This document shows positions 1 through 15,870 of a stretch of DNA of 37,353 nt, one piece after another; the stretch's first letter is position 1; each line of letters opens with the position of its first letter. A model generated the notes under the pieces. The model was not told the origin of the DNA. It did no database searches and saw only the letters and a list, made by a program, of their open reading frames with translations. A program made the position numbers and the translations under genes. This DNA is from Planctomycetota bacterium (GTDB lineage Bacteria > Planctomycetota > Phycisphaerae > Phycisphaerales > SM1A02). The stretch lies in contig QWPT01000027.1 of the NCBI GenBank assembly GCA_003671075.1, forward strand, positions 1 through 37,353. The letters run 5' to 3'.

Positions 1-2816
1 AAGCCATTGTTCAGGTACGCCAGCGCCTGATTGGGCGAAACGCTTTGATTGCGCTTGTCGACGCGCTGCGATGGATCGGCGCAATCGAGCGTGGTCATGA
101 ACGGCTGCATCTGCGATCGAACGATGAAGCGATAAACCGAGCGGCGAAAGGTCGCGCCATCGTTGGGATCGGCGAGGTCGTAGCGATAGTGGGGCGAATG
201 CTCGGGCTGCTCGATCACGAAGTCGTGGAAGCCAGGGCCGCCCATCGCGAGGTCGAGCGATCCAGTGGTCGTGAGCACGGCGTCGCGGACGGCCTCCGCC
301 TCGAGTTTGCGGGTGTTTGCCCGCCAAAGGAGCGTGTTTGCGCTGTCGATCGATTCGGCGGCGGCGCTGGCGGCGGCAGACGGCGCATCACGGCTGACAT
401 CGGAGCGCTGCCGATACGCCGCGCTGGTGACGATCAGCCGATGCAGCGACTTGAGCGATCCCTGCATGTCGTCGCGGAAGGTCGCGGCAAGCCAGTCGAG
501 CAACTCGGGATGCGTGGGCGTTGCGCCCATGCGGCCGAAATCGTTGGGGGTATCGCTGATGCCGTGGCCGAAGTGGTAGTGCCAAACACGATTGGCCATC
601 GTGCGCCAGATGAGCGGATTGCGCGAGTCCACCAGCCATTTCGCCAGTGCAGCGCGGCGTTCACCTTCGCCGCTCGACTCGGTGAGACCGAAGCTCGATG
701 GCAGCAGCGGGTTGAGCGCCGACAGCGCGGCAGGCTCGACGACCTTGCCGGGCTGCGTGACCTGGCCTCGGGAAAGAACGCGGATTTCCCGCGGTTTCCC
801 GCCCTTTGCGCCCGTTCCAGCGAACGAGCCCGTGCCAGTGTGGATGGTGGCCGCGTAGACCGTCATCGGCGCAGGCAGCGCGGCGAGCGACTCATCGGCG
901 CGTGCGATGTCGGTTTCGATCTCGGCTCTTCGCGCAGTGACCGCGTCGGTCTCGAGTTGTTGACGCAGCTCATCGCGTTGGGCGCGCAGTTGTGCGGCGC
1001 GCTCAGGCGATGTGACCAGCGCGGGATAAATGCCGTCGGTCAGGTTCACTCGCCGCCAACGATCGGCCAGTTCGATGCTGTCAAAACTGGTGACGGCGGC
1101 GCCTTGCGCGATGTTGCGTCCAGCGGCATCGATGACCTGCAATTCAGCGAGCGCAAAGATGAAATCACCCTTGCGGTGCGCGAGCGTGGTTGCGCGAACG
1201 CGCACATAGCGCGTCATCACGCCTTGCGCGTCGAACGGCACCAGCGCGGTGGAGTTCGCGCCGCGGGGGTCGCGAGTTGCCGCCGCGATCAACTGCACTT
1301 GCGACTTAAACTCGGGATCGTCCGACGCCTCGACGCGAAACTCTTCGGGAAAACCGAATCCAGCGCCGATTCCGTTGAAGGAGTCGCTGCAGGGCGCGAG
1401 CACGATCTGATTGAACGCGCGCGACGCACCGAGATCGACCTGCACCCACTTCTCCGCGCGCGGATCGAGGGAAATCTCGCTGTGATATCCGTACTCGGGC
1501 GCGTCTTGCTCGGGCGCATCTTGCTCGGTCGCCGCGCCTGGCACAGCAGTTGCCAGTTTCGGCGTTGCCGCGGCAATCTCGCGATCGAGCTGCACCAACG
1601 CGTTGCCGGCGGCGTTGGCAAATGCAGCATCGATCGCCTTCAGTTCATCGCGCAGCCACGTGCGCTGCGTCGCAAATTCGTCGCGTTTGCGCGCGATTTC
1701 GGGAGTCGCGTCATAACGCTTGTCCGCGCGATCAACCGCGGCGAACACCGCCTGCAGCGCGTAGTAGTCTTCTTGCGAAACCGGATCGAACTTGTGGTTG
1801 TGGCATTGCGCGCACTGCACGGTGACGCTCGCAAAGGTGCCGATGGCGTTGCCCACCATGTCGTCGCGATCGAAGTGGCGCGCGAACTTTCCGTCGATCT
1901 TCGCTTCGCTGACTTCCTCGTGCCCGATGAAGTCCCATGGTCCAGCCGCGATGAAGCCCAGCGCTTCGACGCCATCGCGCGTGCCAGGAAACAGCGCGTC
2001 GCCCGCGATTTGCTCCTCGACGAACCGCGAGTAGGGCTTGTCCTCGTTGAGCGCGCGGATCACATAGTCGCGGTACGGCCACGCGTGCTCGCGCGGCTTG
2101 TCTTTGTCGTAGCCGTGGGTGTCGGCGTAGTGGACAACATCGAGCCAGTGGCGCGCCCATCGCTCACCGTAGCGCGGCGACGCGAGCAGTCGATCGACGA
2201 GGCGCTCGTACTTGTCGCTGGTGGCGTCGGCTGTGGCGTCGGCGGCGTACGCGTCAATCTCCTCCGGCGTCGGCGGCAGACCGATGAGGTCGAAATACAC
2301 GCGCCGACACAGCGTGCGCGCATCGGCCTCCTTCGCCATCGCTAGACCATCCTGTGCAAGTCGCGCCGCGATGAACGCATCGATCGGATTGCTGGTTTGC
2401 GCGGGCGGCTGCGGCTTGACCAACGCCCTCAGACTCCACCAATCGAGGGGGTTTGCCGTTTGGACGCTGGCGGTCTCGGGCCACTGCGCGCCTTCGTTGA
2501 TCCAGCGGCGAACGAGCGCGACCTCGGCATCGGTCATGCGCTCGCCTTTGGGCGGCATGACCATGTCTTTGTCGAGCCCCGCGATGTAGCGCGCCATCGG
2601 GCTTGCGTTGGCATCGCCGGGATGGACATTGGGCGCCGACGAATCGCCGCCAAGCAGCGCGATCGTGCGTACATCGAGCCGATAGCCGCTCTTCTGTTTT
2701 TCGGGCCCGTGGCAAGGCAAGCATTTGGCGGCAAAGATCGGCGCGATCTCGCGCTCGAAGTCCACCGCAGGCGCTTGCGCGGTGCAGAGGACTGTGATCG
2801 CGAGCGCTTCCAGCAT
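1..2816 (-). CDS. PSCyt1-DUF1549-discoidin-DUF1553 planctomycete cytochrome protein, 3' end cut by window
   Basis: About 938 codons are visible and the frame stays open to the window edge, so the C-terminus is missing. A heme-binding CLPCH motif at residues 32-36 lies in the PSCyt1 domain. It is followed by the DUF1549 (PSCyt2) block, with the typical FDLIGLPPTPEE segment and a second CxxCH (CAQCH, followed by NHKFDP). A discoidin/F5-8C-like segment follows (KWVQVDLG, about residues 440-500), and then DUF1553 (PSD1), recognisable by NPLIWRTMANRVWHYHFG and HPELLDWLA. The family is expanded in Planctomycetes and is usually paired with a DUF1501 gene, which would lie to the left of the window. 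Its exact role is unknown; polysaccharide-linked redox chemistry has been suggested. The start ATG at 2816 gives a short hydrophobic N-terminus and lacks a Shine-Dalgarno; a TAGATT box lies 6 nt upstream. A 15-bp in-frame duplication (1498-1527) encodes a repeated EQDAP. Confidence 0.9.
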   Translation of the reverse strand, partial: MLEALAITVLCTAQAPAVDFEREIAPIFAAKCLPCHGPEKQKSGYRLDVRTIALLGGDSSAPNVHPGDANASPMARYIAGLDKDMVMPPKGERMTDAEVALVRRWINEGAQWPETASVQTANPLDWWSLRALVKPQPPAQTSNPIDAFIAARLAQDGLAMAKEADARTLCRRVYFDLIGLPPTPEEIDAYAADATADATSDKYERLVDRLLASPRYGERWARHWLDVVHYADTHGYDKDKPREHAWPYRDYVIRALNEDKPYSRFVEEQIAGDALFPGTRDGVEALGFIAAGPWDFIGHEEVSEAKIDGKFARHFDRDDMVGNAIGTFASVTVQCAQCHNHKFDPVSQEDYYALQAVFAAVDRADKRYDATPEIARKRDEFATQRTWLRDELKAIDAAFANAAGNALVQLDREIAAATPKLATAVPGAATEQDAPEQDAPEYGYHSEISLDPRAEKWVQVDLGASRAFNQIVLAPCSDSFNGIGAGFGFPEEFRVEASDDPEFKSQVQLIAAATRDPRGANSTALVPFDAQGVMTRYVRVRATTLAHRKGDFIFALAELQVIDAAGRNIAQGAAVTSFDSIELADRWRRVNLTDGIYPALVTSPERAAQLRAQRDELRQQLETDAVTARRAEIETDIARADESLAALPAPMTVYAATIHTGTGSFAGTGAKGGKPREIRVLSRGQVTQPGKVVEPAALSALNPLLPSSFGLTESSGEGERRAALAKWLVDSRNPLIWRTMANRVWHYHFGHGISDTPNDFGRMGATPTHPELLDWLAATFRDDMQGSLKSLHRLIVTSAAYRQRSDVSRDAPSAAASAAAESIDSANTLLWRANTRKLEAEAVRDAVLTTTGSLDLAMGGPGFHDFVIEQPEHSPHYRYDLADPNDGATFRRSVYRFIVRSQMQPFMTTLDCADPSQRVDKRNQSVSPNQALAYLNNG

Positions 2817-5796: not shown

Positions 5797-5819
5797 CTAC
5801 TGCACACTTCGTAGTTGGG

Positions 5820-5825
5820 TAGCAT
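5820..5825 (+). promoter_or_regulatory. TAGCAT -10-like box before the histidine kinase start
   Basis: TAGCAT is followed by 7 nt and the ATG at 5833, with no Shine-Dalgarno in between. This is the same arrangement as at several other genes here and suggests a leaderless mRNA. Confidence 0.4.
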
Positions 5826-5832
5826 CCGTGCC

Positions 5833-7728
5833 ATGGACGAAGCATTCCTCGGCTCGTTGGTCTCGTCGCTTCCTGATGCGGTTATCTCGATCAACCGAGC
5901 GAGCGTGATCGTGCATGCCAATGAGGCGGCCTTCCAACTTTTCGGCTTCGCGCGCGAGAATTTCATCGGTCAATCGCTTGCCGATACCATCATCCCCCGC
6001 GACCTCGGCCCGCAGCACATGCGCGGCATGGCGAATTTTGCGGCGACTGGATACGGCCCGGTCATCGGTCGTCGCATCGACATCAATGCCTGCGATTACA
6101 CGGGCAGGCGCTTTCCCATCGAGCTCTGCGTCTTTCTCGACCGCGACCGTCCCGGCGAGATTTTTCACGCAACGATTCGCGAAACCACCGAACGCACTGT
6201 GCGCGATGCAGTGGTGAGCGCCGAGCGCGAGCGGCTTCGCCAGACCCTCGACGCGACGGCCGATGCGTGGTGGGATTGCACGGTGGGCGGCACGACGCGT
6301 TTCAGCGAATCGACGGCGCAGGTGCTCGGTTGCCCGCAGACCGAGCTTCCTTCTTGCGCGCCGTCGATCCTGCCATCGATTCATTCCGACGACATTCGCC
6401 GCGTCGACGAGGCGTGGCGCGCGCATCTCGACGGCAGCGTTGGACGCTACGAGTGCACCCATCGTTTGGTTGGCGTCGACGGCGTCATGCGCTGGGTTCG
6501 TCAGCGCGGGCGCGCCGTCGAGTTCAGCGACGGCAGACCGACGCGCATTGTCGGAACCATCGCCGATGTCACCGAGCAGCAGGGTGCCGAAGAACGGCTG
6601 CGCAACGCCCAGCGTTTTGAGATGATTGGCCTTCTCGCTGGTGGTTTTGCCCACGACCTCAACAACTTTCTCGCCGCGATCCGCGGTCATGCCGCGCTTG
6701 CTGCATCCGAACCGGGAGTTGTGCCGGCGGTGCTCGAGTCGCTCGCGTCGGTCCAACTTGCCACTACCAAGGCCAAGATGTTGACTACCAACATGCTGTC
6801 GCTCGGCAAGCCGTCCGTCGAGTCGATCGCATTGTTTTCACTCCGCCATTCGATCGAGGAAACCATCGATCTCGTGCGGCCGGGGTTGCCCAAGTCCGTT
6901 CGTATCGCGGTGGAGTTGGCGCAGGTCGATGATGTCGATATCGAGCTCGATCCCAGTGCTTTCCAGCAGGTGATGGCGAATCTGATCATTAACGCCCGCG
7001 ACGCGATGCCCGGCGGCGGCCGGCTACGCGTTGAGGCCACACCGATGCAATCGACTGGCGCCGGCGTTGGCGCGAGAGTCATCGACTCGGTGCGTATCGT
7101 GATCGAGGACACTGGTGTGGGCATTCCAAGCGATGTTCTGCAGCGGATCTTCGATCCATTCTTCACCACCAAACCACAAGGAATGGGCACAGGCCTCGGG
7201 CTCGCGGTGGTCCAACGCGTCATCAACGGCGCGGGCGGTTCGGTCGTTGTTGAAAGCGATGTGGATCGCGGAACCCGCTTCATACTGCTGCTGCCTGCGC
7301 GTCGTCGGGTCATGGCGGCGGTGGTGAATCCCGTGCAGCATTTGCCGCAGGTGGTGCTTCTTGTTGAGTCGCATGCGGTGCTGCGACCCATGCTTGGTGA
7401 AGCGCTGCGTGCGGCTGGTCACGCGGTGGTGGAGACCGATGGCGCCGCGCAGGCGTTGCGTACGGTGCTTGAGCGCGCGCATGGGCGCGTGGGTGAACGG
7501 ATTTCCATGATCGTGATCGAGAGCGCCTCGACCGGTCTGTCCGGCATCCAAGTGCACGCACAGATCGAGTCTGCGATCGGCGAGCGGATTCCCGTGGTGT
7601 TCATGTCACAGGACGCCAGTCTGGTGCTGGCAAAGGGAGACCGCGCCGACATGCTTCTGCTGCAGAAGCCGTTTGACATCAGTGAACTCGTCGGCGCGAT
7701 CGAGCTCGTCTCCGCCACGGACCATTGA
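5833..7728 (+). CDS. Hybrid sensor histidine kinase (PAS-PAS-HisKA-HATPase-pseudoreceiver)
   Basis: This 631-residue protein has no transmembrane segment or signal peptide, so it is a cytoplasmic sensor. PAS 1 spans about residues 5-115 and PAS 2 (PAS_3-like, with HRLVGVDGVMRWV) about 135-255. The H-box GGFAHDLNN places the phosphorylated His at 274. The N-box NLIINARDAM (N387), DTGVGI, FDPFFTTK and GTGLGLAVV motifs are complete, so the kinase should be active. The C-terminal receiver fold (about 505-625) keeps Lys612 in the QKPF motif. However, the usual acidic pair is Glu512-Ser513 and the phosphoacceptor position is Glu563 (IVIES) instead of Asp. No response regulator gene is adjacent. The start ATG at 5833 is preferred over an in-frame TTG at 5815. 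Confidence 0.92.
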   Translation: MDEAFLGSLVSSLPDAVISINRASVIVHANEAAFQLFGFARENFIGQSLADTIIPRDLGPQHMRGMANFAATGYGPVIGRRIDINACDYTGRRFPIELCVFLDRDRPGEIFHATIRETTERTVRDAVVSAERERLRQTLDATADAWWDCTVGGTTRFSESTAQVLGCPQTELPSCAPSILPSIHSDDIRRVDEAWRAHLDGSVGRYECTHRLVGVDGVMRWVRQRGRAVEFSDGRPTRIVGTIADVTEQQGAEERLRNAQRFEMIGLLAGGFAHDLNNFLAAIRGHAALAASEPGVVPAVLESLASVQLATTKAKMLTTNMLSLGKPSVESIALFSLRHSIEETIDLVRPGLPKSVRIAVELAQVDDVDIELDPSAFQQVMANLIINARDAMPGGGRLRVEATPMQSTGAGVGARVIDSVRIVIEDTGVGIPSDVLQRIFDPFFTTKPQGMGTGLGLAVVQRVINGAGGSVVVESDVDRGTRFILLLPARRRVMAAVVNPVQHLPQVVLLVESHAVLRPMLGEALRAAGHAVVETDGAAQALRTVLERAHGRVGERISMIVIESASTGLSGIQVHAQIESAIGERIPVVFMSQDASLVLAKGDRADMLLLQKPFDISELVGAIELVSATDH

Positions 7729-7812: not shown

Positions 7813-7841
7813 TTGGGCAAAGGCCGGGGCGGCAGTACACT
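7813..7841 (+). promoter_or_regulatory. Candidate promoter of imuA-imuB-dnaE2
   Basis: TTGGGC (7813-7818), a 17-bp spacer and TACACT (7836-7841) form a plausible sigma-70-type promoter. It would start transcription near 7848, directly at the LexA-like palindrome. Confidence 0.55.
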
Positions 7842-7849
7842 AACAAACA

Positions 7850-7865
7850 CCGAACATCGGTTCGG
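7850..7865 (+). promoter_or_regulatory. LexA-type SOS box before imuA
   Basis: The palindrome CCGAAC-ATCG-GTTCGG contains CGAAC-N4-GTTCG, matching the core of the LexA operator known from Firmicutes and Actinobacteria. It sits just downstream of the candidate -10 box, where a bound repressor would block initiation. It lies ahead of the gene set most often under SOS control. LexA itself is not in the window, and the operator used by this lineage is inferred. Confidence 0.75.
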
Positions 7866-7931
7866 CCCAACTTGGTTGCGAATGGAAAGCGGGCAAAAGA
7901 GCACGCGGTTGGCGAAAGCCAGGCGCGTGTG

Positions 7932-7986
7932 GTGACGCGCATGTGACGTGCATGTGACGTGCATGTGACGCGCATGTGACGTGCAG
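7932..7986 (+). repeat. Five 11-bp tandem repeats in the imuA leader
   Basis: There are five head-to-tail copies of GTGACG(T/C)GCAT, the last ending in CAG. They lie between the SOS box and the imuA Shine-Dalgarno. The period is about one helical turn and is not a multiple of three. Confidence 0.9.
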
Positions 7987-8015
7987 CAGTAAGCCTGAAT
8001 GAAGGGAGATCGGTC

Positions 8016-9464
8016 ATGTCGGTTCAAGAATGCTCATGCGAAAAATCATGCGGGGATCCGTCAGCACGCCCCGTTCAAAAAGCACGCGTTCAGCGTGCGC
8101 AACTCGTGATGCGTGAGGCGGAGTCGCGCGCGTCGGCTGTCGTTTCCATGCCCGATTTCACGCGCGTCTCGAAGCATGAGTTTCGAAAAACGGCCACGCG
8201 TGCTGATCGCATGGCGGTCACGGCGAAATCCATCCGCGCGCAACTGCAGGCGGCAGATTGCCAGAGCTCGCAGCTCGCGGGAGAGCGCGTGCATGATCCT
8301 TCGCACGATGTGATGCACGAGCCTTCGCATGACGTGATGCCTGCGCCGCAGCCCGCGCCGCCGATCACGCCCGTGGATGGATTGCGCGTACCGCTTGGCG
8401 ACGCTGATTCTGGCGGCGTGTCGGGCGGATTGCTGTGTGGTGTTCTGCACGAGATCTGCGGAATTTGTATGCCGGTTCGTCGGCGAGACGGCGCGCAAGA
8501 TGGCGCGCAAGACGGCGCGCAAGACGGCGCGCAAGATGGCCCGCAAGTCCGTGGCGATGAGTGGATTGTTCCGTTTGGATGTTTGCTGCACATTTTGCAA
8601 TGCATCAGAAGCGGTGGCTTTGTGCATCGGAGCAACCGCAAGATCGACGGTCCAATCGGGCGTATGAAGACAAGCGTGCAGCAGGGCACGCGAAATCTTT
8701 CTGTGCTACTTGAGCGTGGTATTGCCTGGATTGGTGACAAGGTGCATCCGCATCCCAATGCGTTGCGCGACGATCCTGGTCAAGGATTTTTCGAGGGAGA
8801 ACCCGACGCTCTTTTGACGCAGTCGGTCTTCATTGGCGATGCGTCTGACTCGCGCGCTGCCTGCGGTCAACGGCCGTCGCGTTCGGGTGTTCGTAGTGGT
8901 CGCGACGATGCTTTGTATGCGCGCGTTTGCAATCGAGTGTGGTGCGTCGAGCAGGCGCTTCGTCTTGGCGGCGCAGGGGTGGTGATCGTGGACGGTTCGG
9001 GCTTCGATTCAATGGCATGGCGCCGGCTGCAGCTGGCCATATTGGAGTCGTCGAAGGATTCGTCGTTGTGGCCATGTTCTGGTGGGGCATGCTCGCAATG
9101 GGGAGCCAAGCCGCTCGTGCTCGTGGTCACTGCGCCTTGCGCAGCGGGGGGATTGCGTGCCCGTGGCTGCTCGGCCAGCACGCGATGGAGCGTGCATCCG
9201 GCGCGGGGAGGTGATTTTTGTTGGCGTATGACACTCAAAGCGATGCGGGGAAACGCGTTTCGTGTCCATGACGATGACCGCGAGCGCGCGTGCGCGGACG
9301 CGCGGTCGCTTCTCGAGTCTGGCGCGCTGTGCATCGATATCGCTCGACCACGGGCGAGTCGATTTGCCCAAGTGTGGGCTGATCTGTCCGATCGAATGGC
9401 GGAGGCAATCCACGATGAATCTATTCATGAAGGGCCCGCACAGTGCGGCACGCTGGCCGCATGA
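8016..9464 (+). CDS. imuA: ImuA-like mutasome protein (RecA-related, no Walker A)
   Basis: ImuA proteins are RecA/SulA-like partners of ImuB and DnaE2 in SOS-induced error-prone lesion bypass. Family features seen here are the LCGVLHEICG block (about residues 137-150), AWIGDKVHPHP (about 236-246), VWCVEQALRLGGAGVVIVDG, RRLQLAILE, and a late TRWSVHPA segment. I find no Walker A motif, as is usual for ImuA. At 482 residues it is far longer than typical ImuA (roughly 200-300). The extra length is a long N-terminal region with a duplicated PSHDVM unit, plus five DGAQ-type repeats at residues 158-177 right after the HEICG block. The start at 8016 has a good Shine-Dalgarno (AAGGGAG, 7 nt spacer). 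The stop overlaps the imuB start as ATGA. Confidence 0.85.
   Translation: MSVQECSCEKSCGDPSARPVQKARVQRAQLVMREAESRASAVVSMPDFTRVSKHEFRKTATRADRMAVTAKSIRAQLQAADCQSSQLAGERVHDPSHDVMHEPSHDVMPAPQPAPPITPVDGLRVPLGDADSGGVSGGLLCGVLHEICGICMPVRRRDGAQDGAQDGAQDGAQDGPQVRGDEWIVPFGCLLHILQCIRSGGFVHRSNRKIDGPIGRMKTSVQQGTRNLSVLLERGIAWIGDKVHPHPNALRDDPGQGFFEGEPDALLTQSVFIGDASDSRAACGQRPSRSGVRSGRDDALYARVCNRVWCVEQALRLGGAGVVIVDGSGFDSMAWRRLQLAILESSKDSSLWPCSGGACSQWGAKPLVLVVTAPCAAGGLRARGCSASTRWSVHPARGGDFCWRMTLKAMRGNAFRVHDDDRERACADARSLLESGALCIDIARPRASRFAQVWADLSDRMAEAIHDESIHEGPAQCGTLAA
8487..8546 (+). repeat. Five 12-bp in-frame repeats in imuA
   Basis: Five copies of GA(C/T)GGCGCGCAA encode consecutive DGAQ units (the last is DGPQ). 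The repeat interrupts the conserved part of the protein, between the HEICG block and the WIVPFG segment. Confidence 0.92.
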
Positions 9465-11797
9465 CCAGATCGAATCCATCATCAGCCACGGGGATCTCGA
9501 CGCCGTCGCCTGATCGACAGTCACGGTTTCTGGCCGTGTGTTTTCCACATTGGATCGTCGATCTTGAGCGTGCATTGTTGCGGCGTGCGTTCGTGCATCT
9601 TGGTGAGCCTCTCGATGGAGCGCTGGCGATTCCCTTCCTCGTTGTCGAGGAGCGCAATCGGGTGCATCATGTACTTGGATGTTGTGAACTCGCGCAGGCC
9701 GTGGGCGTGTACGCGGGCATGACGACAAGTCAGGCGCAAGCAATATGTCCGCAGCAACAAACACCCGAAGCAGTGCGCGCCGGCGTGCTGTTGGAGCGTC
9801 TGCGTGGACAGCAGGGGCGGTACGGACGGATCGTTTCTTGCAGCGACCGGATGTTGGCCGTTCATTGGGATGCGCCGATGGCGGCACGCGCATTGAAACG
9901 CCTGGCCTTGTGCCTTGAACGCTGGATTCCCGTGGTGTCCATTGATGCGGCGGCCTGCGGGTCGGACGATCAGTCCAGCGGCGGATCCACGCTTATTCTT
10001 GGTGATTTCACTGGGTGTGCGCAGCTGTTTCGTGGCAAACACGCAACAGAGCGGGGTTTGATGCGCAGGGTCGCGGCATCGTTTGCGCGCAGGGGATTTC
10101 GCACCCAGATCGCAACGGCGTCCACAGTTGGTGGCGCAGCGGCAATGGCTCGATGGATGGCGCGATGGATGATGGGATCGATGGCGCGCGGAACGGCGCG
10201 CGTGCCGCAACCACCGACGCTGCATTGCTCGTCGTCGGACTGTTGCGTCGCTATCCCGCGAGGAAGCGAGCTGCAATATCTCGAGTCGCTTCCGATCGAG
10301 GCGTTGCGTATCTCGGCAGCGTCTGCCGCAGCGCTTCGAAGTGTCGAGGTCGAACGCGTCGGTCAATTCGCGAAGCTTGGTCGCCAAGGTGCTGCGGCGC
10401 GCCTTTCTGGACGCGACGAACATGCAGGAGGCGCGTCGACGCCCGCGCTCGTGCCCATGCCCGCGCTCACGCCGCGCCGACGCGCGCGTTCACGCGATGA
10501 AACGCCGTCGCTTTTCGACATCGAACCGCATGAAGTTGACGCGCGGCCTCGACGCTCTGTGTCGCGATCGACCGAGGATGTATTGCTCAGGCTCGATCAG
10601 GCGCTCGGCGTTGTCGACGAGACGCTGGTCGCGCTTCGCACGCGTGAGCCTGTCATTTTTTCGCGTGTGTTCGACGGGCCGTGCAGCCGAATGGAAACGC
10701 TGTTTGCTGCGTGCGGTGAACTCATCGAGCGGATGGCGGCCATGCTGCAGGCGCGTCGCGAAGGTTTGCGCTACGCGGTGTGGATCTTCAGGCATGCGCA
10801 GTTGCCGGCGGATCTGTCGACCGATCAAACGGATTCGGCGGATCTATCGGCACAGACGCGCGAGTCACGCATCGACCTTCGACTCGCCAGACCAAGTGCC
10901 CGTCGCGTCCACCTCTGGACCGTTCTTCGCACGCGGCTCGAAAATTTGCCGCTCGACCACGGTGTCGAGTCGATCGAATGTAGGGTCGAGCAGGCGGTGC
11001 GGCTGCGATTTCGGCAAGCGCAACTTTTGGCTGGCCACAACGGCGTATCGGCGTCTACCGCAAATTCGCGCCGAGCAGAGTGGATCGATCTTGTGACATC
11101 TCGCCTTGGTTCTTCCGTCCTTGGTTCGTCCGTCCTTGGTTCTTCCGTCCGTGGTTTGTCCGTCCGTGGTTTGTCCGTCCTTGGTTCGTCCTGCTCCGCA
11201 TCCGCAATCGAACTCCACTCGACTGTCGTCGACGGTGGATCGCGGCAGCCTCATGCGTACTTTTCGCGGGGCGAACGCGCGCGCATCGTTGGTGGAACCG
11301 TGGATGATCCCGTGCGTGGAACCGTGGTTAACCCCGTGGCTGATCCCGTGGCTGATCCCGGGGCTGATCCCGTGCGAAACTCCATGCGCGAATGCTCTGC
11401 CGCGGAAAAAATTTCCGAGCAAGTCGCAGAGGCAATCGCCACGCGTACCCGTTGGACATCTCATGGCTCCTGCACCGTGGCTTGGCTTGATTGGCGAGGG
11501 ACGCGCTGGCCGCTGCGCGCCGTCGATGGGTGGGAGCGGATGTCGGTTGCTTGGTGGTCGGACAACGCTCACCGAGAATCAGACGAACCTGCGTCTGGCC
11601 GCGTCTACTCGCGCCTGCAGATTGGCGATGGCCTCTGGCTGTTCGTGCAATGGCCAGCGCATCTGGGCAAGCGGCAGGTAGATCGAGCTTGTCAGCCGCG
11701 ATCGGATCTTGTCCTCGAGGCGAGCGATTGGATTGCCGACGCAGCCGCGGTCATCGAACAAGGTGTCGAGCTGACGGTGCTTGGGGCGTGGGGGTGA
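9461..11797 (+). CDS. imuB: ImuB, catalytically dead Y-family polymerase-like protein
   Basis: ImuB bridges DnaE2 to the sliding clamp and ImuA; known ImuB proteins lack polymerase activity. Here the first catalytic motif is changed (Cys27 and Pro29 where polymerases have Asp) and the SIDE motif reads S-I-D162-A163, so catalytic Glu is lost. Family features include DFTGCAQLFRGK, LPIEALRIS, and a C-terminal part with WERMSVAWW and LWLFVQWP. At 778 residues it is much longer than usual ImuB (around 500). Inserts lie at about residues 325-375 (with the clamp-motif-like TPSLFD, 348-353), 549-577 (LGSSV repeats) and 611-640 (DPVA-type repeats). The start ATG at 9461 overlaps the imuA stop (ATGA), implying coupling; a GTG at 9443 is in frame but less likely. 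Confidence 0.88.
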   Translation: MTRSNPSSATGISTPSPDRQSRFLAVCFPHWIVDLERALLRRAFVHLGEPLDGALAIPFLVVEERNRVHHVLGCCELAQAVGVYAGMTTSQAQAICPQQQTPEAVRAGVLLERLRGQQGRYGRIVSCSDRMLAVHWDAPMAARALKRLALCLERWIPVVSIDAAACGSDDQSSGGSTLILGDFTGCAQLFRGKHATERGLMRRVAASFARRGFRTQIATASTVGGAAAMARWMARWMMGSMARGTARVPQPPTLHCSSSDCCVAIPRGSELQYLESLPIEALRISAASAAALRSVEVERVGQFAKLGRQGAAARLSGRDEHAGGASTPALVPMPALTPRRRARSRDETPSLFDIEPHEVDARPRRSVSRSTEDVLLRLDQALGVVDETLVALRTREPVIFSRVFDGPCSRMETLFAACGELIERMAAMLQARREGLRYAVWIFRHAQLPADLSTDQTDSADLSAQTRESRIDLRLARPSARRVHLWTVLRTRLENLPLDHGVESIECRVEQAVRLRFRQAQLLAGHNGVSASTANSRRAEWIDLVTSRLGSSVLGSSVLGSSVRGLSVRGLSVLGSSCSASAIELHSTVVDGGSRQPHAYFSRGERARIVGGTVDDPVRGTVVNPVADPVADPGADPVRNSMRECSAAEKISEQVAEAIATRTRWTSHGSCTVAWLDWRGTRWPLRAVDGWERMSVAWWSDNAHRESDEPASGRVYSRLQIGDGLWLFVQWPAHLGKRQVDRACQPRSDLVLEASDWIADAAAVIEQGVELTVLGAWG
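11105..11191 (+). repeat. 15-bp in-frame tandem repeat in imuB
   Basis: Nearly six copies of CTTGGTTCTTCCGTC (variants CGTGGTTTGTCCGTC) encode LGSSV/RGLSV units in the C-terminal half of ImuB. Confidence 0.92.
11291..11376 (+). repeat. 12-bp in-frame repeat region in imuB
   Basis: Degenerate copies of GTGGCTGATCCC and related GTG(C/G)NTGGAACC units encode a DPV/TVV/ADPVADP low-complexity stretch. Confidence 0.75.
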
Positions 11798-11802
11798 GGA
11801 CG

Positions 11803-14800
11803 ATGGACGAGACTACCCACTCCAACTCTGCTGCACACTCCGGCCTTCATCAGGCCTCGGCGAACTTGGCCGCAAACGGTTCGAGCTCGTCGGCGCGATC
11901 GTCGGCGCGTGCGTGGGGCGAACTCATTGTTCAAAGTAATCACACCTTTCTCGGGGGCGCGAGTCATCCCGAGGAACTGGTGAAAGAGGCGGCGCGCCTC
12001 GGTCACGCCGGCATTGCGCTGACCGATGTTCAGACGGTTGGCGGCGCGGTGCGTGCACATGTTGCCGCGCGCGCCAGCCCTGGAATCCGTCTAGCGCAAG
12101 GCGCGCGCATCAGCCTGGACATCGTGCAGGGGCATGATCCGTCGCATGATTCACCGCATGATTCGTCGCATGCACCACCGCAGATCGAGCTCGCGCTTTA
12201 CGCCAGTGACCGCGACTCGTGGGGCGCGCTTTGCCGTTTGTTGAGTCATCGGCTGCCCGATGGCGGAGGTGTCGAGCGTCGTCCGCGTGCGCGGCTTGTG
12301 CATGATCTTGTGGCGATGCTGAGCGACCATCCTGGGGGAAAGGGCCTGCTTGCCGTGTTGATTGCGCCGCGGGTTCCGTCGCAGTCGTTTCTCGAGGCGG
12401 CTGAGGGGTTGTCGCGGATCATGCCCGATCGCATGGCCGTTGCCATGCGGCGCGTTGATGAGCCGGAAGGTGTTGTCGATGCGGAGCGCGCACACACGCT
12501 TGCTCGAGCGCTCGGATTGCCTGTCGCCGCAACGAGCGATGTCCGCATGCACCATGCGTCGCGCAGGGAGTTGCTCGATACCGTCACTTGCATCGGTGCC
12601 GGCGTGGCGATTCAGCGGGCGGGGCGGCTGGTCGCGCCCAACGCTGAGCGGCGGTTGCGGCGGCCCGAGGAGATCTTTCGTCGTTACCGCGATTGCCCCG
12701 AGGCGCTCGACACCGCGTGGCGCTTCATCGACCGCGCAGCGCAGTTCTCGCTGGCCGAGTTGCGCTACCAATATCCCGACGAGGTCGTGCCTCTCGATCG
12801 GCGGGAGCAGGGGTGGACCGCGATGACGCATCTCAAGGAGGTCACATGGAAGGGCGCGCGCGAACGCTATCCGCGCGGCGTGCCCGAGAAGGTCGTGCGG
12901 CAGTTCGAGCATGAGTTCGCCATCATTGCCGATCTCGGCTATGCGCCGTACTTTCTCACTGTTCACGAGATCGTCGCTTTCGCGCGCGCGCGCGGCATTC
13001 TTTGCCAAGGTCGCGGCGCCGCGGCCAATAGCGCGGTCTGCTTCGCACTCGGCGTGACGGCGGTCGATCCCGAGCGCGTCGACATGCTCTTCGAGCGTTT
13101 CGTGAGCCGCGAGCGCAATGAGCCGCCCGACATCGATATCGATTTCGAGCATGAGCGCCGCGAGGAGGTCATCCAGCACATCTATGCGAAGTACGGCCGC
13201 GAGCGGGCGGCGCTGGTGTGCGAAGTCATTTGCTACCGAGGTCGCAGCGCGGTTCGCGATGTCGGCAAGGCTCTCGGCATCGCGCCCGATGCGGTCGAGC
13301 GTCTTGCGGCGGAGGTCGACCGCTGGGGAGGCGGCGGGCTCGGTACCCGCGACGACATTACAGAGGAGCGCGCCGACGATGGGCCGCGCCCCTCTAACGC
13401 CGCCCTTCCCTTACGCGCGGCCCTTTCCTTACGCGCGGCGGGGCGCATGCGCTCCGCCGGCCTCGATCCTTCTGCGCCCATGGTCATCCGCTACGCGCAG
13501 CTCGTCGACGAGATTCTCGGCTTTCCCCGCCATCGCTCGCAACATGTCGGCGGATTCGTCATCTCGCGCGGGCCGCTGGTGGAGACCGTTCCCATCGAGA
13601 ACGCCGCGATGCACGACCGCACCATGATCGAGTGGGACAAGGACGACATCGACGCTTTGGGCATGCTCAAGATTGATGTGCTCTCGCTGGGCATGCTCAC
13701 CGCGATTCGCAAGACGATCGATCTGGTGAACGGTGACCGAGCCGCGATTGCAGCAGGCGCCTCTGCGTTTCGGTCGCCCGACGCGCCGCCAGTGCGCGCG
13801 GATCTGCGGACGGTGAGTCCGCCGGCGGTCGCAGCGAGCGCTGCTCAGTCGTTGGTTGCTCCTGCGCTCACGCCCACTCCTGCGCTCACGCCGCTGCGCT
13901 TTCACGCGATTCCCGCCGAGGATCCGGCGACCTACGACATGATCTGTCAGGCCGACACCATTGGCGTGTTTCAGATCGAGTCGCGCGCGCAGATGTCGAT
14001 GCTGCCCCGGCTGCGTCCGCGCTGTTTCTACGACCTTGTCATCGAGGTCGCGCTCGTCCGCCCCGGGCCAATTCAGGGAGACATGGTCCATCCGTATCTG
14101 CGCCGACGCAACGGCGAAGAGCCGATTCACTATCCCGACGAAGCCATTGGCAAGGTGCTCAGAAAGACGCTCGGCGTGCCGCTCTTTCAGGAGCAGGCGA
14201 TGGCGCTCGCGATTGTTGCGGCAGGCTTTACCCCCGGCCAGGCCGACGAACTGCGCCGAGCGATCGCCGCGTGGAAGCGTCAGGGAAATCGCATCGCTCA
14301 ATTTGGCGACGCACTCAAGAGCGGCATGGCGGCGCGCGGCTACACGAGTAAATTCGCTTCACAGGTCTTCGAGCAGATCAAGGGATTCTCCGGCTACGGC
14401 TTTCCCGAGTCGCACGCGGCGAGCTTCGCGCTGTTGGTCTATGCGAGCGCGTGGCTCAAACGCCACCATCCCGCAGCGTTCGCCGCCGCGCTGCTCAACA
14501 GTCAACCGTTGGGTTTCTACGCGCCCGCGCAGATCCTTCGTGATGCAGCCGATCACGGCGTCGCGGTGCGCGCGATCGATGTGCACTGCTCAAGATGGGA
14601 TGCGACACTTGAACGGGGAATTGATCTTGCGCGTGATCTTGCGCGTGATCCCGCCGCCCATCATGCCATCCCAGCATCCACGGTTGCGCGATCCTCCTCG
14701 AGTTCCTGTCGTCGTAGTCAGCTCCAGATCGACGAGGAATCTCTTCGTCTGCATGCCCGCCATCCGCATGTCCGTCACGGCGCGGGCGTCATTGAGGCAT

Positions 14801-15870
14801 GGGATGCGTGTCGGGATGCGTGTCGGGACGCGCGTCGGGACGCGCGTCAGGATGCGCGTTGGATTGTGCTTGGCGGCGTGGACAGGCGGGGGATAGACCG
14901 TCCAGACGCGTCCATTCCCGCGTCAATCTCTACTGCAATCCCCGGCGTGTTTGGACGGTTGCATGCTCGTGGGCGCAGTGTGGCCGACGCCGCTGCGCCT
15001 GCATCGAATCCCGAGCAACAGCCACTTTGTGCGCCCTCGTCCTCGCGGTCCCCATCGCCATCGCATGACGCCGCGGTGGACGATGTGCATGTTCCTTCAC
15101 AGCCGGCGATCCGCCTCGGCCTGCGCATGATTCGAGGTCTTGATGTCGAGGAGGCGCATCGCATCGTCGACGCGGTTGCTCGTCATGGTGCGTTCCGGCG
15201 GATGAGCGACCTTCAACAGGCGGCAAGCGTGAGCGTGGCATCGCTGCGTCGCCTTGCCGGCGCCGATGCATTCACCTCGATGGGCCTTGATCGCCAGCAA
15301 GCCTCCTGGCAGATTCTCGCCTTGCGCGATCGCGAGCGTCCGCTCTGGTCCTTCTCCGCCACCAGTTGCGATATCGCCGCATCTCCCGCGCCCGACGCGC
15401 CCGAAATCGAGCAGCACCTTCCGGCCGTCGCGGAACTTGCCGACATTGCCAAGGATTTCGACGCGACCGGCGTCACGCTCAAACGCCATCCGATTGCCTG
15501 TATCCGCGAACGCCTTGATCGCGCGCGCGCCGTGGCGTGCTCTTGGCTGCGCGATGAGGCGCGATGTCCTACGGGGAGCATCGTTCTGGTTGCGGGTCTT
15601 GTGCTCGTGCGTCAGCGGCCGTCAACGGCGAAGGGCGTCGTCTTTATGACCATCGAGGACGAGAGTGCGATCGCTAATCTCATCTTCCGTCCAAAGGTCT
15701 ATGAGCGTTTGCGCACGCAGGTCCGGCGGGCGATGGTGGTGTGTGTGCGCGGGCAAGTCGAGCGTCGCGATGGCGTCGTTCATCTGCTGGTGACGAACGC
15801 GAAGGATGTGACCAAGGCGCTTGCGTCCGCGCAGATCCATGCAGTCAGTAAGCCTCGCGACTTTCGCTGA
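11803..15870 (+). CDS. dnaE2: DnaE2, error-prone C-family DNA polymerase
   Basis: DnaE2 is the catalytic polymerase of the ImuA-ImuB-DnaE2 mutasome. The N-terminal PHP domain (SNHTFLGGASHPEEL) carries the DnaE2-type variant of the histidine motif. The catalytic carboxylates are present: Asp443 and Asp445 in PPDIDIDFE, and Asp625 in LKIDVLSLGML. Other hallmarks are GRGAAANS, HRSQHVGGFV, GVFQIESRAQM, VRPGPIQGDM and GYGFPESHAASFA. A C-terminal HhH region (LGLRMIRGL) and an OB fold (about residues 1259-1340) follow. At 1355 residues it exceeds the usual 1030-1100, because of inserts near 111-126, 508-545, 642-695 and a very large one at about 935-1100. The start ATG at 11803 is 5 nt after the imuB stop; an in-frame GTG at 11794 would overlap that stop as GTGA and cannot be excluded. 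Confidence 0.93.
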   Translation: MDETTHSNSAAHSGLHQASANLAANGSSSSARSSARAWGELIVQSNHTFLGGASHPEELVKEAARLGHAGIALTDVQTVGGAVRAHVAARASPGIRLAQGARISLDIVQGHDPSHDSPHDSSHAPPQIELALYASDRDSWGALCRLLSHRLPDGGGVERRPRARLVHDLVAMLSDHPGGKGLLAVLIAPRVPSQSFLEAAEGLSRIMPDRMAVAMRRVDEPEGVVDAERAHTLARALGLPVAATSDVRMHHASRRELLDTVTCIGAGVAIQRAGRLVAPNAERRLRRPEEIFRRYRDCPEALDTAWRFIDRAAQFSLAELRYQYPDEVVPLDRREQGWTAMTHLKEVTWKGARERYPRGVPEKVVRQFEHEFAIIADLGYAPYFLTVHEIVAFARARGILCQGRGAAANSAVCFALGVTAVDPERVDMLFERFVSRERNEPPDIDIDFEHERREEVIQHIYAKYGRERAALVCEVICYRGRSAVRDVGKALGIAPDAVERLAAEVDRWGGGGLGTRDDITEERADDGPRPSNAALPLRAALSLRAAGRMRSAGLDPSAPMVIRYAQLVDEILGFPRHRSQHVGGFVISRGPLVETVPIENAAMHDRTMIEWDKDDIDALGMLKIDVLSLGMLTAIRKTIDLVNGDRAAIAAGASAFRSPDAPPVRADLRTVSPPAVAASAAQSLVAPALTPTPALTPLRFHAIPAEDPATYDMICQADTIGVFQIESRAQMSMLPRLRPRCFYDLVIEVALVRPGPIQGDMVHPYLRRRNGEEPIHYPDEAIGKVLRKTLGVPLFQEQAMALAIVAAGFTPGQADELRRAIAAWKRQGNRIAQFGDALKSGMAARGYTSKFASQVFEQIKGFSGYGFPESHAASFALLVYASAWLKRHHPAAFAAALLNSQPLGFYAPAQILRDAADHGVAVRAIDVHCSRWDATLERGIDLARDLARDPAAHHAIPASTVARSSSSSCRRSQLQIDEESLRLHARHPHVRHGAGVIEAWDACRDACRDARRDARQDARWIVLGGVDRRGIDRPDASIPASISTAIPGVFGRLHARGRSVADAAAPASNPEQQPLCAPSSSRSPSPSHDAAVDDVHVPSQPAIRLGLRMIRGLDVEEAHRIVDAVARHGAFRRMSDLQQAASVSVASLRRLAGADAFTSMGLDRQQASWQILALRDRERPLWSFSATSCDIAASPAPDAPEIEQHLPAVAELADIAKDFDATGVTLKRHPIACIRERLDRARAVACSWLRDEARCPTGSIVLVAGLVLVRQRPSTAKGVVFMTIEDESAIANLIFRPKVYERLRTQVRRAMVVCVRGQVERRDGVVHLLVTNAKDVTKALASAQIHAVSKPRDFR
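12133..12180 (+). repeat. Four 12-bp in-frame repeats in the PHP domain of dnaE2
   Basis: Four copies of CATGAT(T/C)C(A/G)(C/T)CG-type units encode HDPS-HDSP-HDSS-HAPP. The GCATGATCC core is shared with the intergenic array at 25955-26040 and with a duplicated segment in imuA. Confidence 0.88.
14803..14862 (+). repeat. Five 12-bp in-frame repeats in dnaE2
   Basis: Five copies of GA(T/C)GCG(T/C)GTCGG encode DACR-DACR-DARR-DARQ-DARW within the large insert before the HhH region. A separate GATCTTGCGCGT repeat lies nearby at 14623-14652. Confidence 0.9.

Follow-up and report, generated by a model that had tools for sequence, protein, structure and literature searches.

The LexA operator of Alphaproteobacteria is the direct repeat GTTC-N7-GTTC (PMC3323433, PMC8565304), that of Gram-positive bacteria is GAAC-N4-GTTC (PMC3323433), and that of Balneolaeota is again a direct repeat, TTACACATATTTTWTACATA, regarded by its authors as independently evolved (PMC7739468). 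The imuA-imuB-dnaE2 cassette is described as LexA-regulated (PMC6511836), and planctomycete LexA is reported not to recognise operators of the E. coli type (PMC3108266). In the open-licence literature that we searched, most subscription papers lying outside the search, we found no motif for planctomycete LexA and no paper joining LexA, Phycisphaerae and the SOS response.

The locus considered here comes from a planctomycete of the order Phycisphaerales (assembly GCA_003671075.1). It resembles the known cassette (PMC6511836) in its three genes, their order, the coupled starts and an operator in front, and differs from it in the divergence of ImuA and ImuB, the short tandem repeats in the genes and the type of the operator. 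The operator proposed here, GAAC-N7-GAAC, is compared below with the operators cited above. It shares an identical 11-bp period with the alphaproteobacterial operator, whose reverse complement, GAAC-N7-GAAC, is the lexA/recA consensus of the genus studied; however, the phylum is another one and the conserved frame, CGAACATNNMCCGAACA, is longer. This likeness is one of operator sequence and does not establish common descent. With the Balneolaeota motif the proposed operator shares the direct-repeat arrangement and differs from it in half-site and spacing. With the Gram-positive operator it shares the GAAC half-site, and a palindrome in the imuA promoter fits that operator, whether fortuitously or because it supplies an additional half-site; yet the Gram-positive half-sites are inverted, whereas those found here are direct, and no exact CGAAC-N4-GTTCG precedes lexA, recA or radA of the genus.

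Cassette genes and imuA promoter

The window, i.e., the whole 37,353-nt stretch of DNA that was analysed, equals contig C34 of the draft genome G000 (3.35 Mb). Its nearest named relatives, as judged by LexA, are metagenome-assembled genomes, mostly planctomycete (Phycisphaerales, Phycisphaera, Planctomycetaceae, Planctomycetota), with a few bearing other names or none. All elements of the imuA-imuB-dnaE2 cassette described in the earlier note are in place (Table 1): imuA and imuB share an ATGA overlap (9461–9464), imuB is coupled to dnaE2 either by a GTGA overlap (GTG start) or by a 5-nt gap (ATG start), and the promoter TTGGGC-17-TACACT is present at 7813–7841.

Table 1. Features of the cassette region and of related loci (positions are those of the window unless a locus or contig is named).
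Feature	Position	Strand	Remark
-35 hexamer TTGGGC (plausible)	7813..7818	+	17 nt before -10
-10 hexamer TACACT	7836..7841	+	
Direct-repeat operator CTAACA-N5-CGAACA (putative LexA site)	7840..7856	+	overlaps last two -10 bases
Palindrome CCGAACATCGGTTCGG	7850..7865	.	left arm = right half of direct repeat; right arm poorly conserved
11-nt tandem repeat, 4.9 copies, imuA leader	7932..7985	+	
imuA	8016..9464	+	NF033429 ImuA, weak match
imuB, divergent Y-family protein	9461..11797	+	PF00817 IMS and place between imuA and dnaE2
dnaE2, error-prone polymerase	11803..15870 (ATG 11803 or GTG 11794)	+	NF004225
radA direct-repeat site	L025 1501-1517 = G000 contig C48:26871-26887		just upstream of radA
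Inverted half-site TGTTCGG	L015 about 2810-2816		read on recA strand
Sister-clade lexA loci with CCGAACAAAAGTTCGG	L209, L210, L216, L217 (= G032 contig), L220, L223, L227, L232		

DnaE2 scores 1228.5 bits with NF004225, against a cut-off of 939 bits, and contains PHP and polymerase III alpha domains. The match of the window's ImuA to NF033429 (E 2.8e-4, 20.8 bits) is far below the 150-bit cut-off, and its identity is accepted because of the kinship of the aligned set: each of the six ImuA proteins in the alignment, among them that of the window, matches this model at E <= 0.1, the best of them at 8.7e-15. ImuB matches PF00817 (IMS) with E 1.7e-4 and 22 bits, slightly under the 23.2-bit cut-off, and a PDB sequence search with it returned no match at E <= 1. 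ImuA and ImuB are divergent, both being under curated cut-offs.

The dnaE2 frame is long, 1355 codons from the ATG compared to the 1047-position model, and long DnaE2 open frames are also seen in several genus members. Tandem repeats with units of 11, 12, 15 and 24 nt are scattered over the leader, imuA, imuB and dnaE2 (7932–7985, 8290–8340, 8486–8547, 11104–11374, 12132–12186, 14801–14859). Directly upstream of the cassette, a gene encoding a PAS-histidine kinase with a weak receiver domain occupies 5815–7728 of the window, and ORF ends resembling, by eye, that of this gene precede imuA in some genus members.

As for the promoter, TACACT, TATACT or TACCCT stands at the place equivalent to the -10 hexamer in ten imuA promoters, which had been chosen with a pattern that includes the -10 bases. 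In six of the ten aligned imuA promoters from other genera, TTGAC(N) is found 16 nt before TACCCT; the spacing of 17 in the window is one base off, and hence TTGGGC is a plausible -35 box, yet not exactly the conserved one. The imuA promoter of the window fails a strict scan for the sigma-70 consensus.

Palindrome and direct repeat in the genome

The palindrome CCGAACATCGGTTCGG is the sole exact CGAAC-N4-GTTCG in the window, and at the density of this pattern in the genome (13 sites in 3.35 Mb) one exact copy in one promoter is unlikely. The earlier note took it for a LexA operator of the Gram-positive type, and gave a search for more such sites, above all before lexA and recA, as the test. 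Neither gene has any of the 13 genomic sites in its vicinity, and no exact site occurs within 13 kb of the sole lexA match (contig C2) or of recA (contig C81); as the control pattern, read backward, yields 22 sites, the palindrome class is not enriched. Throughout the genus, with 1200 nt upstream considered or less where contigs end, the exact pattern precedes lexA in 0/14, recA in 0/13 and radA in 0/15 cases. In imuA itself it is exact only in G000 and G012, i.e., in two out of six readable genus promoters and in none of ten from other genera; the arms are at other spacing or degenerate in G001 and G008, and the right arm is missing from G004 and G005.

Similar palindromes are nevertheless encountered in relatives. 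In a sister clade within the family, CCGAACAAAAGTTCGG, a CGAAC-N4-GTTCG, is found before lexA in G032 and seven further named loci, where it stands beside a weak or degenerate direct repeat; recA of G032 is also preceded by a palindrome, ACCGAACACGTGTTCGGT, and one CGAAC-N4-GTTCG occurs before recA of G020. In other planctomycete families, represented by 30 lexA loci that are the best 30 of a 98-genome sample and not a random draw, the region up to 600 nt before lexA contains GAAC-N4-GTTC in four loci and GAAC-N7-GAAC in one, the reversed controls giving 0. These palindromes, together with the two exact imuA copies, speak for CGAAC-N4-GTTCG itself being the LexA operator; however, given its absence before all genus lexA, recA and radA genes, the decay of its arms in imuA and the lack of enrichment in the genome, we consider such an operator very unlikely. 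It was rejected because no exact site precedes lexA or recA in the genome or the genus, and in this respect the earlier note was not borne out, the shared element being a direct repeat.

The palindrome might, alternatively, act not as a protein site but as a 5' hairpin stabilising the imuA mRNA, for which its presumed location near the transcript start and the 6-bp stem with a 4-nt loop would be suitable. On the other hand, the region's folding does not surpass that of shuffled sequences (z -0.15), for which reason the leader hairpin was rejected, and the stem is exact in just those two genus promoters; this role is hardly credible.

The element common to lexA, recA and radA is the direct repeat GAAC-N7-GAAC with an 11-bp period (consensus CGAACATNNMCCGAACA), a variant of which is present in register in imuA. 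Upstream of lexA it reads TGTTCGGTCAATGTTCG, and upstream of recA, TGTTCGGTGTATGTTCG; the opposite strands, CGAACATTGACCGAACA and CGAACATACACCGAACA, respectively, carry two GAAC copies that point the same way, with 7 nt between them. In register with the lexA and recA sites, imuA has CTAACAAACACCGAACA in its promoter; the palindrome's left arm forms the second half of this repeat, and the first half begins within the -10 box. It is this direct repeat, at 7840–7856, that is clearly beyond chance in the imuA promoter.

The pattern CGAACATNNACCGAACA has only two exact matches in the 3.35-Mb genome, those of lexA and recA, although their exactness is circular, as the pattern was drawn from these two sites. 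With two mismatches allowed, the shared pattern retrieves ten places, compared to five for the control, and these include lexA, recA, imuA and radA, the radA site being CGAACTTTTACCAAACA, a few tens of bases upstream of this DNA-repair gene. A looser pattern yields 14 places against eight for the control, with four exact ones, namely, lexA, recA, imuA and a place at C1:135727, inside ORFs and away from any recognised SOS gene. Many of the weaker matches, besides those of the four genes, are covered by long ORFs, as judged by eye. Overall, genome scans with the direct-repeat patterns are enriched only mildly.

Some 330–1200 nt separate the putative lexA operator from the start of lexA, and a further ORF lies in between. 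About 110 bp from this operator, an ORF judged by eye to be aminotransferase-like (L014 2934–3659) starts divergently; the operator may hence serve both directions.

Conservation of the direct repeat in relatives

To describe the repeat in relatives, the lexA, recA and imuA sites of the genus, 28 in total, were compiled into a 17-position weight matrix, with radA outside the training set. Matches were counted if they scored >= 9 within 1200 nt of the gene and on its strand, reversed sequences serving as controls; the best score of a region was taken on the gene's strand in the genus, family and order counts, and on either strand in the matrix-building and half-site survey and in the palindrome survey of named loci. 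For lexA, matched in 77 genomes, the upstream counts cover 71, and for recA, 50 out of 76; for radA, 31 out of 35 genomes over the cut-off were read and one was excluded, having 90 nt upstream only. Promoters of imuA were readable in six out of 16 genus genomes, the other ten being at contig ends, lacking a DnaE2 match or not fetched.

Since the matrix was trained on the genus lexA, recA and imuA sites, its genus counts for these genes are not independent: it matches 13/13 recA and 13/14 lexA regions (controls 0 in both), the fourteenth lexA having 614 nt upstream before the contig end. The strict GAAC-N7-GAAC is found in 13/13 recA regions (reversed control 2/13) and 10/14 lexA regions (control 0). 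For radA, the matrix matches 13/15 regions (control 0) and the strict pattern 5/15; each of the 13 genomes carrying the site has it at -53 to -55 relative to the RadA match, and in the two remaining ones, G008 and G014, there is a matrix match on the other strand. The repeat is also present in all six readable imuA promoters, the first half being TAAC in each of them, and hence not strict.

In the other genera of the family, the matrix recognises 18/31 lexA and 21/22 recA regions (control 1 in each case), and in the other families of the order, 15/26 lexA (control 0) and 8/15 recA regions (control 1), so that 13/31 and 11/26 lexA regions, respectively, are below the threshold. The radA site is seen in 0/15 regions outside the genus (family 0/6, order 0/9). 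The strict pattern is rare there (4/57 for lexA, 0/37 for recA): TAAC, TATC or a related sequence makes up the first half, while CCGAACA is mostly kept, and the first half could partly be a -10 box. Both halves are fixed, and the two bases separating them vary. Named lexA loci show the same element, 59 out of 80 passing the matrix on the gene's strand, as do 40 out of the 48 left when loci with a lexA identical to that of a genome already used are excluded (control 0 in both cases). Five further lexA regions, scanned without control, scored 14.6, 10.6, 10.4, 14.5 and -3.6, and lexA of one member of another family of the class, also without control, scored 5.1. The imuA element TANNCTAACAAANRCCGAACA occurs within three mismatches in 10/26 loci outside the genus, some of these loci being very short; in 20 of the outside-genus loci, reversed controls have at least six mismatches, and the real opposite strand has four in G054 and G076.

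One feature of recA does not fit a pure direct repeat, which would leave the inverted arm of this promoter unexplained: in all 13 genus members, an inverted TGTTCGG follows the direct repeat within 40 nt on the recA strand. Together with the palindromes of the G032 clade and G020, it suggests that inverted half-sites may be of importance in part of the promoters. The operator might then be composite, LexA binding the direct repeat, as in the reading we prefer and which is contained in this one, with an extra inverted half-site strengthening or extending the binding in some promoters. The constancy of TGTTCGG near the recA repeat agrees with this, and so does the coincidence of the palindrome's left arm with the second half of the direct repeat, both in imuA (G000, G012) and before lexA in the G032 clade. 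However, the place of the inverted arm is not constant from gene to gene, only the two genus promoters of imuA named above have the exact palindrome, and CGAAC-N4-GTTCG, the spacing counted here, precedes neither lexA nor radA in the genus. We regard such an extension as possible but doubtful; recA might have a composite operator or a second site.

LexA, the proposed switch and the ORF overlapping lexA

The direct repeat stands before lexA itself, recA, imuA and radA, as an autoregulated SOS regulon predicts, and this distribution points to LexA. In 27 aligned LexA proteins, A101-G102, S143 and K181 are invariant; we take these to be the cleavage site and the catalytic dyad. The LexA family profile matches solved LexA proteins across the whole length, and the helix region reads SPTMQELADELGVSKVTVFEHV. 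The support for LexA being DNA conservation, the shared repeat might instead be bound by a different damage-responsive regulator. The presence of the element before lexA, expected under autoregulation, and before recA argues against this, as does the single LexA match in the genome with its cleavage residues kept, and we find another regulator very unlikely.

Taking all this into account, we consider it probable that imuA-imuB-dnaE2 belongs to a LexA-controlled SOS regulon with lexA, recA and radA, and that the core operator is the direct repeat GAAC-N7-GAAC, not the palindrome. Points against this reading are the distance between operator and gene in lexA, the rarity of the strict repeat and the lack of the radA site outside the genus, the lexA regions below the matrix threshold, the mild enrichment in genome scans and the inverted arm of recA. 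The claim of the earlier note that the cassette is LexA-controlled is thus upheld in part: with an SOS-type element in front of the cassette that is conserved and also precedes lexA and recA, LexA control is well supported, presumably via an operator other than the proposed one. LexA binding, repression and induction we infer from this conserved DNA element.

An operator over the -10 box and the start region is a classic repressing position. LexA would bind two half-sites that face the same way and are spaced by one turn of the helix; in imuA it would cover the -10 box and the start region and block RNA polymerase; upon DNA damage, RecA would be activated, LexA would undergo self-cleavage, and the mutasome would be made. 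GAAC is replaced by TAAC in the first half of the imuA repeat; the probable reason is that the -10 box ends on the initial bases of this half.

In the 30 lexA loci of other planctomycete families, the LexA helix-turn-helix differs, e.g., SPNGVMCHLKALEKKGL. It is likely that the operator changed within the phylum along with this helix, which rests on few sites; the G032 clade, a member of the same family that keeps the lexA palindrome, argues against a clean operator switch.

Between the putative operator and lexA, there is a conserved ORF in another frame, denoted gX, that stops about 200 nt inside lexA (L014, contig C2 of G000) and overlaps its DNA-binding domain. The gX frame is open to that point in 70 out of 71 genomes, compared to 12.5 expected when lexA codons are resampled, a comparison that does not amount to a probability because the genomes are related. 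The translation ends in a [QE]QG[ST]LF-like motif in 67/71 genomes (in LL in three), and the lexA leucine at the gX ending is encoded by TTG or TTA in 70/71 genomes, compared to 10% of leucines elsewhere in those genes. For 80 named loci, which partly come from genomes already counted, the frame is open in all 80; 76 retain an N-terminal GPG motif and 71 the LF ending, while the leucine codon is TTR in 72/72 loci where it could be located. Three gX proteins searched had no Pfam match, and a PDB sequence search gave two weak matches (E 0.18 and 0.58). The ending [QE]QG[ST]LF is a candidate for a sliding-clamp-binding motif, which it resembles.

Jointly, these observations allow for a tentative scenario, to which we assign slightly less than even weight. 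Within the planctomycetes, Phycisphaerales may have altered the helix-turn-helix of LexA and also exchanged a Gram-positive-like palindromic operator for a direct repeat with alphaproteobacterial geometry; the operator-headed lexA operon would begin with an SOS gene, gX, whose last ~65 codons lie in the second frame of the lexA DNA-binding domain and whose clamp-binding-like end makes it a candidate damage-induced regulator of replication or division, tied to lexA by the overlap.

The case of the imuA promoter is also a warning that one perfect palindrome in one promoter is insufficient for calling an operator. The direct repeat, in turn, is another likely case of LexA turning to this type of site. 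It is proposed here as the LexA operator for a large, mostly uncultured planctomycete lineage, and should help to predict the SOS regulon of this lineage from sequence.
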